DNA from: Bryum argenteum | Lineage: Eukaryota; Streptophyta; Bryopsida; Bryales; Bryaceae | Reading direction: 5' to 3' | Length of the DNA stretch: 64,000 nucleotides | NCBI GenBank assembly: GCA_037043015.1 | Contig: CM073328.1 | Location: forward strand, 5,319,409 to 5,383,408 | Shown here: one piece after another, positions 11,511 to 51,850 of the stretch | How the letters are laid out: every line of letters begins with the position of its first letter | How positions within the stretch are numbered: position 1 is the stretch's first letter | Made by a program: the position numbers and the translations under genes | Notes under the pieces: model-generated | What the model saw: the letters and a program-made list of their open reading frames with translations, nothing else | The model's database searches: none | What the model was told of the DNA's origin: nothing

Positions 11511-12433
11511 TTAGCCTCTAAAGGTCCAAGCGTTTTTTGGATCTCCAAACTCAAATAGTGCAATTTTGACCACCTTGTAGAGATTGATGTAAGGCTAAAA
11601 TTTTTATCAATTTTAAGGATCTTCAACAATAAGATCTCAAGAGAAACTACTATTTGATTTACCATGTCTAATATCAACCGTTGGAAATCCACCTTGTGAG
11701 ATCATAGCATTCACAATTGATTCAAACTTTTTTTGGGCATTGTCCAGAAGTGGTAGTCTACTTTGAGCAAAGGGAGACATGATGATTTTTGCTCCACACA
11801 TTTTCCTCATATTTTTTCCATGTAAATAACTAAGTTGAAAATGCCCATGCAAATCTCAGAGACTCGTTCCCCTTTTTGAGCTTGCAAGCAATTTCCTTTT
11901 CTGGAAGAAGGTATACAAACAACAATATGGAAAAGCAACCATCACGTTTGTTGTATTTCATTTAAAGAAAAAGTGAACGGTGAGTAGGTACCTTTATGAG
12001 TTTGTGATTTTTGGTGAATTTTTTCTCAAAAATTCCAAAATCTCAAAATTTGACAAATTTTCAAAGAAATAAGTTTTCAATGATTTTGACAAAATCTCAA
12101 AGATTGTTTTTGTACTTTTTTAGAGGCTGCCCTTGTAAAATTGGTTTACTTTTTGACTTGAGTTACTTTCAACCTGAAGTAGTGATTCAGTAATGAACTT
12201 TTTTTTAAAAAAAACTAATAAAAAATGACTAATCTTAAAACTGCCCTTTTTGGACTTGAAACCTAAAATTTCTAAATGAAGGTTCCAAACTTGAAATACA
12301 ACTTTGAAAATTTTACCACATACTCTTTGTAGTATAAGGAGCATCAAGTAAAAACCTTACTTTTAACCCATTCATCTAGGCTGCCCAAAATTGCAAAAAC
12401 TTGTTATGAGATTTACGGACCTTTAAGGGTTAA
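11511..12433. mobile_element. Long TTAA-type inverted-repeat element, decayed copy
   Basis: The left end reads TTAGCCTCTAAAGGTCC and the right end GGACCTTTAAGGGTTAA. Inside are the family blocks GAGGCTGCCCTTGTAAAATTGG (near 12122) and TAGTGATTCAGTAATGAAC (near 12179). The length of about 923 bp agrees with the copies at 27333 and 47096. No coding capacity remains. Confidence 0.65.
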
Positions 12434-13557: not shown

Positions 13558-13979
13558 TCAACGTCATCATTTTTTGCACACCCATGTTGCAAAAACTTGT
13601 GTCGAAATGGTCCAACAAGCCTTCGTAAGATACGCATATGAGTATACTAAATTTGGTCATTGGTATACTCCGTGGTGTACTCAAAAATTATTAAATCCAA
13701 GTAAGGGCCCCTAATCGCTTAATGTTGTACCATCATGTTTATTTATACCAATCCGTTTGGTGATTGCAACATGAGTGGTTACTAGTAGGTGGATGAATCT
13801 CCTTGGACCTCGGAAGGCTACTAATGAGACTTGCCATGGGTTCAATTCTTGGGCCATGCGAAACCATGGCGCCACGTCGCGGAGGGGGTTAGGATTTTCT
13901 CCATATGGAGTGCTATGTCATTCCGTCACACACATGGAGTGTCTCATGTCGATATGGGCTTTCACTGGAGTATCTCATG

Positions 13980-13991
13980 TTACTACTGACC
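13980..13991 (+). repeat. Target-site duplication of the SINE at 13992
   Basis: TTACTACTGACC occurs here and again, identically, at 14357-14368, directly flanking the SINE. Confidence 0.9.
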
Positions 13992-14356
13992 AAGGCACCG
14001 CAAGCCTTGGCTTGGTGGTTGGGGCTCATGGCCCCCATTGAGGAGGTTGTGGGTTCCATTCCCCATGCCGGCGTGGTGCTCACCACTATAGTCCACCCAA
14101 CTATTGTGGGGGGTCCTTGGACCTTGTTGTATGGGTACCTCAAAGTCCTTTGGGGGGATACTATGTCAAGTATCCTCAAGGCACTAGTAACTAGGCTAGA
14201 AACTAGCGTAGTTATAGTGTCCACCCTCGAGAGGGGGAAGTAGTATTGTTCCAATTTCCCCTTGTCCGGTGGCCATCGGGATATTAGCATTACGAACGGA
14301 CACTTCATTCACGCCGGCCCCTTAGAAAGGGACCGGAGTTTCTATCTATCTATCTC
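13992..14356 (+). mobile_element. Full-length tRNA-derived SINE (copy A)
   Basis: A 365-bp element with a tRNA-like head: an A-box-like TGGCTTGGTGGTTGGGG and, about 35 bases on, a B-box-like GGGTTCCATTCCC. A tRNA-unrelated body follows, then a TCTATC-repeat tail instead of poly(A). It is flanked by a perfect 12-bp duplication. Copies A and 51179-51544 are nearly identical by eye, which suggests recent activity. RNA polymerase III transcription and mobilisation by a partner LINE are inferred from SINEs in general. The open frames crossing it are by-products of the SINE sequence, not genes. Confidence 0.92.
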
Positions 14357-17274: not shown

Positions 17275-17540
17275 TTAACCCCTAACTTTCCTTGTTGCAA
17301 AACCGTCTAAGTCACAAAATTTCTTCCTCTATATCAAGCTCAAAAAAATCTCAATCTAAGCATCCTTTAAAAAATCGAACCGTAAGATCTCAAAGTTCAC
17401 TTGACATTCTTCTTACATACCAAATTTAAACCGTTCATTCTTCCTCGTTTGTGAGATTATAATGGTCAAAGTTGGTTGAGTTTTTCTCTTGCTGGAACCT
17501 CCAAAACCCGTTTCAGGTTTTAAGGAAAGTTAGGGGTTAA
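17275..17540 (+). mobile_element. Short TTAA-type MITE (266 bp)
   Basis: The left end is TTAACCCCTAACTTTCCTTG and the right end is AAGGAAAGTTAGGGGTTAA, so the termini are perfect inverses for about 18 bp. The interior carries the module ACCGTAAGATCTCAAAGTTC ... AAACCGTTCATTC ... GAGATTATAATGGTCAAAG. The copy at 50339-50606 is collinear throughout. No coding capacity. Confidence 0.88.
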
Positions 17541-26877: not shown

Positions 26878-27332
26878 TAACCGTAGGATCTAGTACGGAA
26901 CATGTATTTGTACTCTCATATTCAGATTACTTACTGATTGTGAGATTGTAATGTTCAAAGTTGGAGAAGAAGAAGTTTTTTCGCCTTGTTGTAGAAAGGG
27001 TCGCTAGTTTTTTGAGGGCTGAAATAATCATTTTAGGCAAAGAATTTGATGTGTGGCTTCATATTCTTTTTTCTAGGTGAGTCAAGGACATGTCTAGCAA
27101 ACTTCAACGTTGCACTTGTTTAGGGGTGGAAAGCCCTGAGCAATTCTTTGTAATACATATGTACTTTTTGATGATGATTTGAGAGACTAAATTTATAAAA
27201 GTTCTTTATGCTAAAGGACCTCATTTTGCAACAAATTGCAAAGTCAAATTCCAATTTTTGAATCTTTTAAGGCAATTTTCAAGATGCAATCTTAGATACT
27301 CCGGCTTAGATTCAAATTTTTTTGAGTTTTTT
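26878..27332 (+). mobile_element. Left part of an older TTAA-type element, interrupted at 27333
   Basis: It contains AACCGTAGGATCT and GAGATTGTAATGTTCAAAGTTGG (module-like), then CAAAGTCAAATTCCAATTTTTGAATCTTTTAAG. The last stretch is collinear with the left arm of the 47096 element. It stops at the TTAA where the 27333-28269 element begins and appears to resume at 28270. Confidence 0.6.
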
Positions 27333-28269
27333 TTAACCCCTAAAAATCCAAGCGTTTCCTCGACCTCCAGAACCAAAAACTGCCATTTTTCACCTTCGTT
27401 GGGAAATGGGGAAGTGGAGAAACTTTTTTTCTGATTTTAGACTTTGAACCGTAAGATCTTGTATATAACTTGTATACAAAGGACTGATCAAAATTTCAAC
27501 CGTTGGATGTTTGTCATTTGTGAGATCATAACAATCAAAGTTTGTCCAACACTTTTTTTTGCCGCTGCGTGAGAGGCATTGTCTAAATGGTGCCAAGGGC
27601 AACTTGATGATTGTTACTCCAAACATTTTTCCCTCATTTTTTTTCATGTAGGTAATCAAGTTGGGTACGCTCATGCAAAATTTTAGAAACCAATTCCACT
27701 TTTTGACCTTAATGTAAATTATTCTATGAAAGAAGGTCTAAAAACAACAATACAGTAAAACAAGCACCACATATGATATATTTAGTTTGAGAAAAATATG
27801 GACGGTGAGTAGGTGCATTTATGAGAATGTGAATCTTGAAAGAAAAAAAATCTTGGAAAAATTCCAAAATCTCAAATTTTGGCAATTTTTGAAAGAAAAA
27901 TTTTTAAAATTATTGAAAATTGTGAAAATTGTTCTTGAAAGTTTTGGAGGCTGCCCTTGTAAAATTGGTAAACTTTTTGACTTTGAATACTTTGGAATTT
28001 GAATAGTAATTTGGTAATGAACATATTTCGAAAAAAAAATACTTTAAAAAAATTTATTTTAAACTGCCCGTTTTGGACTTGAAACCTAAAAGTTCTAGAT
28101 GAAGGTTATAAAATTAAAATTTGGCTTTGCAAATTTTACCACATACACATTACATTATGGGGATTATACAGTAAGAATCTTAGGCAAAAATATCAATTTA
28201 ATTGCTTAAAATGAGCTGCCCGAAATCTCAGAAAACCAAATCAGTTTTTCCTGGATTTTTAGGGGTTAA
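27333..28269 (+). mobile_element. Long TTAA-type element nested in an older relative
   Basis: TTAACCCCTAAAAATCCAAG starts the element and GATTTTTAGGGGTTAA ends it, 937 bp. It carries the module (ACCGTAAGATCT near 27450, AACCGTTGGATG near 27499, GAGATCATAACAATCAAAG near 27521) and the block GGAGGCTGCCCTTGTAAAATTGG (near 27945). The flanking DNA on both sides is a broken relative, which makes the TTAA target visible. Confidence 0.75.
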
Positions 28270-28970
28270 AAATATGTTCATAACCAAATCAATACTCAAG
28301 TTCAAAAGTCATCCAAGTCAAAAAGTTTGTCAATTCTATAAGGGCAGCCTCCAGAATTTAAGAAAACACTCTTCATAGTTTTTAGTAATTTTTGAATATT
28401 TCTTTCAAAATTTGTCTAATAATTTACATGTTGAGATTTTTCAATAAAAAATTCTCTTGAAGTTCACAAATTTATAAAGGCCCCTAATCACCGTTTACTT
28501 TTCTCTAGTTTAAAATTGTCGTTCCACAATATTTAGTTTGCCAATCTTGCACATCTAAGGCGATATTTGACCTCCATGCAGGAAACAATTTTAGTTTTTT
28601 CCTTAAGAACTTCGGGAAACCCTAAGGTTTTGCACGCACATACTTAGTTCAATTACCTACATGGGAAAAAAAAATGAGAAAAATGTTGTGGGTAACAATT
28701 ATCAACTTGCCCTTTGCACCATCGAGAACACACATCCTCTGGAATTCCAAAAAAAAACTTTCGCTGCAGCTTTGAGCATTATGATATCACAAATGATAAA
28801 CATCCAACGACCAATTCTTGGAACAATACTAAAAAGTAACGTAAAAAGTACAAAAAAATTATGGTTGGGAGTCTAAAAAAAGTACTGAAAAATTACATAC
28901 CCTCGGGAGTCCATAGAGGTTGAAAATTACAACTTTGAGGTTTCAAGCTCCCAAAAACAAAGAAAATGGA
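28270..28970. mobile_element. Right part of the interrupted older TTAA-type element
   Basis: It resumes with TGTTCATAACCAAATC-ATACTCAAGTTC, AGTCAAAAAGTTTGTCAATT and AAGGGCAGCCTCCAG, the central blocks of the family. It ends near GTTTCAAGCTCCCAAAAACA. Its own terminal repeat is lost or degraded. Confidence 0.55.
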
Positions 28971-29229
28971 ACTCAAAATCACATGATCTTGAAAGGAATG
29001 ATACTATTTTTATTTATTTGATGTAATAATGTATCAATATATTAATCAATTGACAATACATACACAAGCCAAAACAAATGCCAATATACAGCTTTTCATT
29101 CACTTTGTCTTTTATCAGACTTTTAAGTGGTCGCTCTTGGGTGTCTACCTGGCTATAAAGTTTCACTTCCACTTGTTGAATGGACGGCTCAATTTGCAGA
29201 TATTCTATTAACACTATTTCAAAAACACT

Positions 29230-47095: not shown

Positions 47096-47990
47096 TTAAC
47101 CCCTAACTTTCCTTGAAGCCCGAAACGGGCTTTTGCAATTCTGGGCAGCCTAGATGAAGGGGTTAAAAGTAATATTTTTGCCTAAAATTTTTATCGAGTC
47201 CTCCTTATACTACAAAGTGTATGTGGTAAAATTTGCAAATTCAAATTCCAACTTTCGAGTCTTCTAGGACGATCCTTGGGTTGCGAGCCGAGATGGGGCA
47301 GCTCAAAAAAGTGACTTTTTTGATTTTTTTTTTTTTGAAACATGATCATTACTAAATCACTACTCAAATTTCAAAGTGACTCAAGTCAAAAAGCTTACCA
47401 ATTTTACAAGGGCAGCCTCCAAAAAACTTTAGAACCAATCTTCGCAATACCCAAAAAAACTTGGGAGACAAACTTTGGATGTTATGATCTCTCAAATGGT
47501 AAACATCCAACGGTCGATTTTTTGAAGAGTAATCAGGCATATTCTTAGGTACAAGATCTTACGGTTGGAAGTTTTAAAAAAAGAATAGAAATCGGTTTAC
47601 ACCCCCACGAGTGCCTAGAGGTAGAGTTTTTTTGGGTATTGGGAAGATTGGTTTAAATTTTTTTTGGAGGCTGCCCTTGTAAAATTGGTAAACTTTTTGA
47701 CTTGAGTCACTTTGAAATTTGAGTAGTGATTTAGTAATGATCATGTTTCAAAAAAAAAAAATTCAAAAAAGTCACTTTTTTGAGCTGCCCCATCTCGGCT
47801 CGCAACCCAAGGATCGTCCTAGAAGACTCGAAAGTTGGAATTTGACTTTGAAAATTTTACCACATACACTTTGCAGTATAAGGAGGACTCGATAAAATTT
47901 TTAGGCAAAAATATTAATTTTAACCCCTTCATCTAGGTTGCCCGGAATTGCAAAAGCCCGTTTCGGGCTTCAAGGAAAGTTAGGGGTTAA
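47096..47990. mobile_element. Foldback-type TTAA element with arms of about 325 bp
   Basis: It begins TTAACCCCTAACTTTCCTTG and ends with the inverse. The two arms (47096 to about 47420 and about 47665 to 47990) are inverted copies differing at roughly ten positions by eye. The central spacer of about 240 bp carries the family module in reverse (CAACGGTCGATTTT near 47508, AGATCTTACGGTTGGAAG near 47553). TTAA lies at both outer edges. Short frames inside are not coding. The high arm identity suggests the youngest insertion of its group here, or arm homogenisation. Confidence 0.92.
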
Positions 47991-50338: not shown

Positions 50339-50606
50339 TTAACCCCTAAATTTCCTTGTTGCAAAACGGTCTAAGTCACAAAATTTGACCTTCCTTAAGA
50401 TTAAGCTCACAATATTTCAATCTAAGCATTATTTGAAGGATTTAACCGTAAGATCTCAAAGTTCACTTGACATTCTTCTTACATACCAAATTTGAACCGT
50501 TCATTCTTCCTCATTTGTGAGATTATAATGGTCAAAGTTGGCTGAATTTTTCTCCTGCGAGAACCTCCAAAACCCGTTTCGGGATTTAAGGAAAGTTAGG
50601 AGTTAA
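50339..50606 (+). mobile_element. Short TTAA-type MITE (268 bp)
   Basis: It starts TTAACCCCTAAATTTCCTTG and ends AAGGAAAGTTAGGAGTTAA. It is collinear along its length with 17275-17540 and keeps the internal module (ACCGTAAGATCTCAAAGTTC near 50446). Confidence 0.88.
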
Positions 50607-51165
50607 CCCTTAATTGTCACCGGTAACCAAATTGGTCACCAAGGTCATTGTTTTTGCTTTTGGGGTCCGACACAGTGGTATGGTGCAAATCTTGTCCAAA
50701 GGCACCCCTATTCTTTTGTTTTTCCGAATCCGATGCTCCTTCCCGATCGCCTTCTTGAGGTTTGTGTGATCCGCACGAAATACTAGGGGCCACGTGATCC
50801 CATAGTCAATGCTCTTTGACTTGGCCTTTCTTTTTATTGTTTTGACGATTTTTTTTCAAAATAATAAAAAATCTTGATCTTTATCCCTATACCATGCTCT
50901 ATGATGCCAATTTTCAGAAAAAATGACCCAAGGGGAGAAAAACCAAAAAAGCAATATGATATTTCTCACTCATGATCAGCAACCAAAACAATTTTTTCTC
51001 AACGGTGCCATTTTTTGAGATCTTACCCGATGTGATCGATCTTTTTTGCATTGGTCACATCACCAAGTTACCTTGATAACCACCGTTTCCGATTCTCTAA
51101 ATTGTTTTACCTTCAGTGCAGAAATAAGGCCAGAAGACAATGAGGTTGCATTTCTCTCCAATTTG
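50607..51165. other. Intergenic stretch
   Basis: No supported gene or element is visible. Confidence 0.4.
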
Positions 51166-51178
51166 TGGAAAACAAGGA

Positions 51179-51544
51179 GGCACCACAAGCCTTGGCTTGG
51201 TGGTTAGGGCTTGGGCCCCCAATGAGGAGGTCGTGGGTTCTATTCCCCATGCCGGCGTGGTGCTCACCACTATAGTCCACCCAACTATTGTGGGGGGTCC
51301 TTGGACCTTGTTGTATGGGTACCTCAAAGCCCTTTGGGGGGATACTATGTCAAGTATCTTCAAGGCACTAGTAACTAGGCTAGAAACTAGTGTAGTTATA
51401 GTGTCCACCCTCGAGAGGGGGAAGTAGTATTGTTCCAATTTCCCCTTGTCCGGTGGCCATCGGGATATTAGCATTACGAACGGACACTTCATTCACGCCG
51501 GCCCCCTTAGAAAGGGACCGGAGTTTCTATCATCATCATCTATC
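51179..51544 (+). mobile_element. Full-length tRNA-derived SINE (copy B)
   Basis: 366 bp, nearly identical to 13992-14356. It has the A-box-like TGGCTTGGTGGTTAGGG, the B-box-like GGGTTCTATTCCC and a tail of TATCATCATC then TATC. The perfect 13-bp duplication TGGAAAACAAGGA flanks it (51166-51178 and 51545-51557). The tail variant differs from copy A, so the tail is re-made or slips at insertion. Confidence 0.93.
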
Positions 51545-51572
51545 TGGAAAACAAGGATGTCAATTAAGGGTT

Positions 51573-51850
51573 AACCCTTAAAAATTATGTGTGTCTGAAG
51601 TCAACACAATGGAAAACAAGCTGAAACTTTGAAGAGCCATAACTTCTTCATCCAAATTTTGTTTCGGATGAAATCACTTGGTTTTGGTAGTAAATCAAGT
51701 CTTATTGTGAAATAAGAAATGTAGACCAATACAATGAATCTTTGATTGATGGCATTCATTTTAGTGAGGGCAACTTTTGCTTTTGGGTTCTCAAATATGA
51801 GGCATGTTTTACCATCGCAAGCCAATTTTGTAGAATAGATAATTGGTTTT

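Follow-up and report, generated by a model that had tools for sequence, protein, structure and literature searches.

A nested miniature transposon, very probably of the piggyBac type, in a land plant genome with many piggyBac transposase domains

The window, the whole 64,000-nucleotide stretch of DNA that was analysed, contains an element at 27333-28269 that lies inside an older relative of itself. The sequence TTAACCCCTAAAAATCCA begins at 27333 and its exact reverse complement finishes at 28269. The terminal inverted repeats are 14 bp long and perfect (CCCCTAAAAATCCA), with TTAA outside each, and the perfect inverted match reaches 21 nt if the flanking T/A bases are included. These are the termini given by the first-pass annotation. 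The motif TTAACCCC is found 20 times in the window, whereas 100 shuffles gave 2.36 on average and never more than 9. As the longest stop-free stretch in the majority sequence of 40 copies is 107 codons, we take the element to encode no transposase. The features of the window are as follows.

11511-12433, plus strand: uninterrupted relative, with TTAG before CCTCTAAAGGTCC at one end and TTAA after GGACCTTTAAGGG at the other (72-74% identity)
12205-12208: single TTAA at the site that corresponds to the insertion point in the older relative (joined-flank alignment to the relative at 11511)
17275-17540: TTAACCCC...GGGGTTAA miniature, 266 bp
27189-27332, minus strand: left part of the interrupted older relative, traced limit (joined-flank alignment)
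27333-27336: left copy of the target duplication, TTAA (flanking each end in 35 of 40 genome copies)
27337-28265, plus strand: non-autonomous element, very probably piggyBac-type, 929 bp without TTAA (39 other scored copies)
27337-27350, plus strand: left terminal inverted repeat CCCCTAAAAATCCA (100% complementary pair)
28252-28265, minus strand: right terminal inverted repeat (the same 100% complementary pair)
28266-28269: right copy of the target duplication, TTAA (read in the window)
28270-28979, minus strand: right part of the older relative, terminus decayed (homology to 28942/28955, end extrapolated by 24 bp)
47096-47990: 895-bp TTAACCCC...GGGGTTAA element whose long arms are near-symmetrical
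50603-51574: TTAACCCTTAAT-bounded pair, 972 bp, end bases matching at 12 of 14; a possible member only

Three further observations concern other repeats. The element at 47096-47990 is fold-back like, in that about 350 bp on each side match one same part of the element at 11511. Two 131-aa reading frames on the minus strand of the window, 13913-14308 and 51097-51492, lie 37 kb apart; they are near-identical over the first ~90 residues, then unlike, and are probably another dispersed repeat. Elsewhere in the genome there is a second miniature family of 267-268 bp with TTAACCCCTAAAGATCC-type ends and the same target (L026:842-1109, L026:8555-8821 and L014:1381-1648).

Homology of the older relative can be traced from about 27189 to 28942, and on the right side to 28955, some 24 bp before the expected end; its outer limits, 26878 and 28970, are approximate. 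A TTAACC end was sought on both sides of it in the window and none was visible. A short direct repeat at 26938-26962 hints that the left part includes a second, inverted arm. The right part resembles a 3' end found beside a transposase elsewhere in the genome (L056, 69% over 193 columns). When the two flanks were fused on one TTAA, they aligned to the relative at 11511 at 66% identity and gap-free at the junction; against the window element itself, the same fused flanks aligned at 65%, with a 3-base gap in an A-run by the junction. The first-pass annotation had proposed that one older relative was cut in two here and is uninterrupted in the element at 11511, and the gap-free alignment and the single TTAA at 12205-12208 uphold it.

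The genome from which the window comes (258.8 Mb, 25 contigs) was searched at the DNA level, and of 4,113 first-look candidates 40 were scored. In addition to the window copy, this gave 39 scored matches at 92-95% identity, all full length or nearly so except one that covers bases 1-877, and the 39 regions that contain them were read. The resulting flank table, which carries out the alignment suggested earlier, lists 40 copies: that of the window, 38 of the 39 that were read and a second copy in one of the regions (L019); the partial copy (L039) was excluded by a length cut. TTAA was present on both sides of 35 of these 40 copies, which are the best-scoring ones and therefore biased towards intact ends. 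The other five flank pairs were CTAG/CTAG, CTAG/CCAG, TTAG/TTAA, TTCA/TTTA and GTAA/TTAA. No longer shared flank was found among the 40 copies: the four bases beyond TTAA are mixed on each side. Divergence of the copies from their majority sequence has a median of 3.4%, and any two copies differ on average by 5.8%. A genome search for the exact end with TTAA gave 1,555 matches, and the reversed control pattern gave 0. Among 100 places listed for this end, 50 make 25 inward pairs with starts 902-925 bases apart, so it is likely that the genome contains several hundred two-ended copies.

Empty sites are less uniform. Nine further alignments that span the window junction show TTTG (3), TTGG (4) or TTAG (2) and none shows TTAA; among the relatives examined for this junction, only the one at 11511 has TTAA at the empty-site position. 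For three other copies (L009, L044 and L046) the junctions are gap-free against paralogs among the matches listed, and these paralogs carry CCAA, CAAA, CGAA, TCAA, CTAA and similar 4-mers, mostly not TTAA. Paralogs of two more copies (L028, TTGA; L030, TTAA) match at the junction with gaps close by, a paralog of L022 (CCAA) has a one-base gap adjoining the junction, and the match of L017 to the L030 junction retains TTAA. As these diverged paralogs are only ~65-80% identical, they are poor witnesses to the original 4-mer, which may have changed before or after the split. Empty sites that lack TTAA had been named earlier as grounds for rejecting the TTAA proposal. The relative at 11511 and the L017/L030 comparison keep TTAA; most diverged paralogs do not. 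The empty sites show that the duplication is four bases at most.

At a TTAA target, duplication of all four bases looks the same as duplication of TA with A...T inside the element, even given an empty site. Because the diverged paralogs are ambiguous on the 4-mer, the positive case for 4 bp is carried by matched variant targets, which we used to tell the two apart. The 4-mers that precede CCCCTAAAAATCC in the genome are TTAA (1,555), CTAA (12), CTAG (10) and TTAG (7); across the four end-count searches, the reversed control pattern gave one match in one search and 0 in the other three. If the two outer bases changed independently, 12x7/1555 = 0.05 CTAG ends would be expected, and the 10 observed are nearly 200-fold commoner. 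Six of these ten make up three facing CTAG/CTAG pairs, and a CTAA end and a TTAG end face each other at 932 bp, which is CTAA...CTAA on one strand.

C4:13615885-13616818: CTAG/CTAG pair, 934 bp (sequence also read, L013)
C9:389781-390704: CTAG/CTAG pair, 924 bp (coordinates only)
C2:5873616-5875297: CTAG/CTAG pair, 1,682 bp (coordinates only)
C7:4347418-4348349: CTAA/CTAA pair, 932 bp (coordinates only)

These pairs are 4-bp direct repeats of non-TTAA targets. Together with the empty site at 11511, they bear out the 4-bp TTAA duplication that the first-pass annotation had proposed, and the TTAA/TTAA flanks of 35 of the 40 copies agree with it. Occasional non-TTAA targets are also consistent with piggyBac. 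More generally, counting matched variant targets is a clean means to distinguish a 4-bp TTAA duplication from a TA duplication.

We then consider the source of transposase. In a Pfam scan of ten ORFs, one ORF in L023 gave a weak PF13843 match at its end (E 1.7e-4, just below the curated cut-off). Three of four pieces in its continuation, L050, matched the same profile (1.3e-13, 6.4e-7 and 0.0065); the fourth gave none. This transposase pseudogene (L023:7581-9265 and L050:3729-4884) is interrupted by ~1.9 kb of other sequence, and it is 79-80% identical to a copy on C4. Genome-wide, PF13843 gave 116 scored matches above the curated cut-off from 775 candidates, on C1-C11, with a best E of 7.4e-82; the same profile search gave no match in 14 control genomes. 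The matched stretch is free of stops in 93 of the 116, a fraction biased upward because the scored matches are the best-scoring part. Six matches score equally and are likely to be a recently multiplied transposase family. The features that bear transposases and are discussed below are as follows.

C1:24627430, C2:2426161, C2:9109846, C4:13758654, C8:13523609 and C9:4435876: set of six PF13843 matches at 258.4 bits, on five contigs, with open frames of 515-916 aa (sequence read for the C8 copy)
C4:18396030-18400979: 4,950-bp element that starts TTAACCCTTAAACGCCC and ends in its reverse complement (sequence read)
C1:23339974-23345172: 5,199-bp element with the exact end at 23339974 and the inverted end at 23345172 (coordinates only)
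L011:1909-3114, minus strand: PIF/Harbinger-type transposase ORF, 402 aa (Plant_tran, E 1.9e-83)

The genome thus contains DDD transposases of the DDE_Tnp_1_7 family (116 matches). In the one copy checked, L052, the ORF matches insect piggyBac (PDB 6x67, E 4.1e-31) and piggyBat (PDB 9c0f, E 5.2e-22), and piggyBac D268, D346, D447 and D450 align with its aspartates 194, 273, 386 and 389. The transposase domain of L052 lies within a 514-aa ORF. An overlapping 410-aa ORF without a Pfam match precedes it and may be the N-terminal part of the transposase. piggyBac transposases have a cysteine-rich domain at the C terminus; the L052 ORF has CxxC pairs at its end, where no Pfam zinc-finger match was obtained at E 0.01. 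The 831-aa ORF at C8:13523609 (L051) also matches 6x67 and 9c0f; an inverted TTAA pair was sought in the 5.2 kb read there and none was found.

The window element's own end stands beside some of these genes. We searched for TTAACCCCTAAAAATCCB, in which the next base is not A, so that the miniature itself was left out, and obtained 81 places. Six of them point inward and lie 1,378-2,010 bp past a transposase domain on its 3' side; 2,000 trials of random placement gave 0.12 such cases on average and never more than 2. One of the 81, at C4:13941790, points outward 1.8 kb from a transposase and was excluded from the support. Three of the six linked domains have an internal stop. Two of the six 3' ends were read (L055 and L056). 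As far as TTAA, their 302 aligned columns show 96% identity, and the 13 and 19 flanking bases beyond it are unlike, so the moved unit seems to end at TTAA. Against the window element, both are 75-78% identical over its bases 97-292. Among the best 40 copies of the L055 end, 7 follow a scored transposase on its 3' side (40 of 41 matches were used; a 110-base second piece was left out), and the other copies may be miniatures or may adjoin unscored genes, since scores were obtained for 116 of 775 candidates. For the six linked transposases, 5' ends were sought with two end patterns and neither matched: the left-end pattern TTAACCCCTAAAAATCCAHH gave 45 places, by eye none within 10 kb of a PF13843-scored transposase, and no element that was read has a transposase bounded by exact CCCCTAAAAATCC at each end.

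Both ends were found for a sister end type. TTAA followed by CCCTTAAACGCCC bounds the two ~5-kb elements listed above. The C4 element contains the top-scoring transposase, and its alignment with the L023/L050 paralog begins within one base of the element start; the C1 element surrounds the second-best transposase (C1:23341202-23342323). The sister end has 9 of 13 bases in common with the window element's end and occurs exactly 3,298 times; since many listed pairs are ~370 bp, it seems to be associated with miniatures as well. The search for a transposase with the same termini, proposed earlier, gave six domains with the exact end on the 3' side and two elements with the sister type at both ends (one by coordinates only); CCCCTAAAAATCC ends on the 5' side were not found with the patterns tried. 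A further candidate for a complete partner, at C1:14767585 with TTAACCCCTAAATTTCC 3.6 kb downstream, was rejected because that end belongs to a relative of the miniature (L054, 66% over 613 columns).

The ends also have the form expected of piggyBac, short inverted repeats that start CCC/CCY: CCCCTAAAAATCC in the window element and CCCTTAAACGCCC in the transposase-bearing elements. We are highly confident that the feature at 27333-28269 is a miniature non-autonomous piggyBac transposon (MITE) that inserted at TTAA within an older relative. Its assignment to the piggyBac superfamily, offered only as a hypothesis at first, is strongly supported by the TTAA target, the CCC ends, the PF13843 genes, and the same or sister ends beside transposases. 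Among other explanations, a Kolobok or Sola3 transposase may move these elements, the linked piggyBac genes being a coincidence in repeat-rich DNA. Both superfamilies target and duplicate TTAA, as seen here, but PF13843 transposases lie between matching ends in two elements and the exact end of the window element adjoins six transposase domains, and we consider this explanation very improbable. We searched genome-wide with the PF13843 profile, and a partner from another superfamily with these ends was not found. Slightly less probable again is a Tourist-like (PIF/Harbinger) miniature that duplicates 3 bp, TTA/TAA being the usual target of that superfamily. A Harbinger-type transposase is represented in the genome by the 402-aa ORF in L011, which has Plant_tran and DDE_Tnp_4 matches. 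However, a 3-bp target would make the ends unlike, and here they are symmetrical, CCCC...GGGG, each flanked by TTAA; the CTAG/CTAG and CTAA/CTAA pairs are at odds with TWA, and the same or sister ends adjoin piggyBac transposases. Least probable of all, and close to negligible, is a Stowaway-like (Tc1/mariner) miniature that duplicates the two bases TA, has the ends ACCCC...GGGGT and prefers tTAa: all-TTAA flanks would give identical filled and empty sequences under either duplication, so the window alone cannot separate them, but the matched CTAG/CTAG and CTAA/CTAA pairs contradict TA, as they require outer and inner bases to change jointly, CTAG is far above the prediction for independent change, and the linked transposases are of the piggyBac type.

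Based on these results, we propose a model for the piggyBac-type miniature. Full-length elements elsewhere in the genome would encode a piggyBac-type transposase. This enzyme most likely recognises the shared end CCCCTAAANNTCC and cuts next to TTAA. Reinsertion would then duplicate 4 bp at another TTAA, or in rare cases at CTAG or CTAA. We infer that the linked transposases moved the window element. By analogy, the movement may proceed by hairpin, traceless-excision chemistry, which is the chemistry of the insect piggyBac enzyme.

The host bears on how unusual such a system is. Both genome matches of a 5.8S pattern carry GAATTGCAGAATTC, and Rfam identifies them as 5.8S rRNA. Mosses presumably carry this variant, and we take the ITS2 after one of the two genes (L049) to be moss-like. 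The flowering-plant motif is given as GAATTGCAGAATCC in an excerpt of one paper (PMC5209741), and an excerpt of another reports the GAATTGCAGAATTC variant for fungi (PMC2965122). Genes of plant type lie close to the loci, among them one for an AP2-domain protein and one for a legume-lectin receptor kinase, and they argue against a fungal host. Of the contigs encountered, ten measure 16.8-44.1 Mb and C11 measures 7.0 Mb. An excerpt of a moss paper reports the smallest sex chromosomes for two Sphagnum and two Hypnales species and the largest for other mosses (PMC10619864), and C11, being small, would fit. The host is probably a moss. Judged from two rRNA copies, one of them aberrant, it is probably not a flowering plant. 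Thus, the caution in the first-pass annotation that the superfamily is not commonly reported from flowering plants probably does not apply, as both 5.8S copies have GAATTGCAGAATTC instead of the angiosperm GAATTGCAGAATCC. The aberrant copy (L048:1447-1650; C1 near 9060156) is a 5.8S gene in which ITS2 is absent and a run of N lies upstream; unlike it, L049 has a longer spacer after the 5.8S. The sequence directly after the L048 gene resembles, we assume, the start of 26S, and this copy is possibly an rRNA pseudogene.

piggyBac is generally regarded as an animal, fungal and protist superfamily. An excerpt of a plant review counts it among class II superfamilies (PMC10794571), and part of a repeat table for ferns includes it (PMC6890710). 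Among the matches listed, in a search mostly outside subscription journals, no title or abstract opening reported moss piggyBac transposons; in one moss paper, which has two matches for the word, the one displayed was 'piggybacking' (PMC10619864). The superfamily is known, and a radiation of such size in a land plant is unusual. We consider it an evenly balanced question whether this is a native, recently or still active land-plant piggyBac system, with several subfamilies, full-length transposase genes and miniature swarms, and with TTAA and rarely CTAG/CTAA as target. That reading is based on the 1,555 and 3,298 exact ends, the 93 of 116 stop-free domains and the six equal-scoring domains on five chromosomes. 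A land plant with abundant piggyBac families, both transposase-bearing and miniature, widens the documented range and raises the question of descent versus horizontal transfer. Such families are also a possible plant-native source of TTAA-inserting tools, the existing ones being derived from insects and bats.

Known systems share some of these properties. Plant Stowaway and Tourist MITEs are likewise small, AT-rich and high-copy with terminal inverted repeats, but their duplications are TA and TWA, whereas here 4 bp are duplicated and the linked transposase is different. Animal miniatures derived from piggyBac, such as MER75 and MER85, are likewise short and non-coding, with TTAA and CCC-type ends and a transposase supplied elsewhere; unlike them, the present element is 929 bp long and resides in a plant genome with many full-length transposase domains. 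In contrast to insect piggyBac (6x67) and bat piggyBat (9c0f), the present elements reside in a land plant, probably a moss. The two with both ends are ~5 kb, and the proteins have low sequence similarity to the solved ones. The ends of insect and bat piggyBac elements start with CCC. As in those elements, TTAA is duplicated here, the transposase is of the DDE_Tnp_1_7 family, and the catalytic aspartates are aligned in the copy checked.
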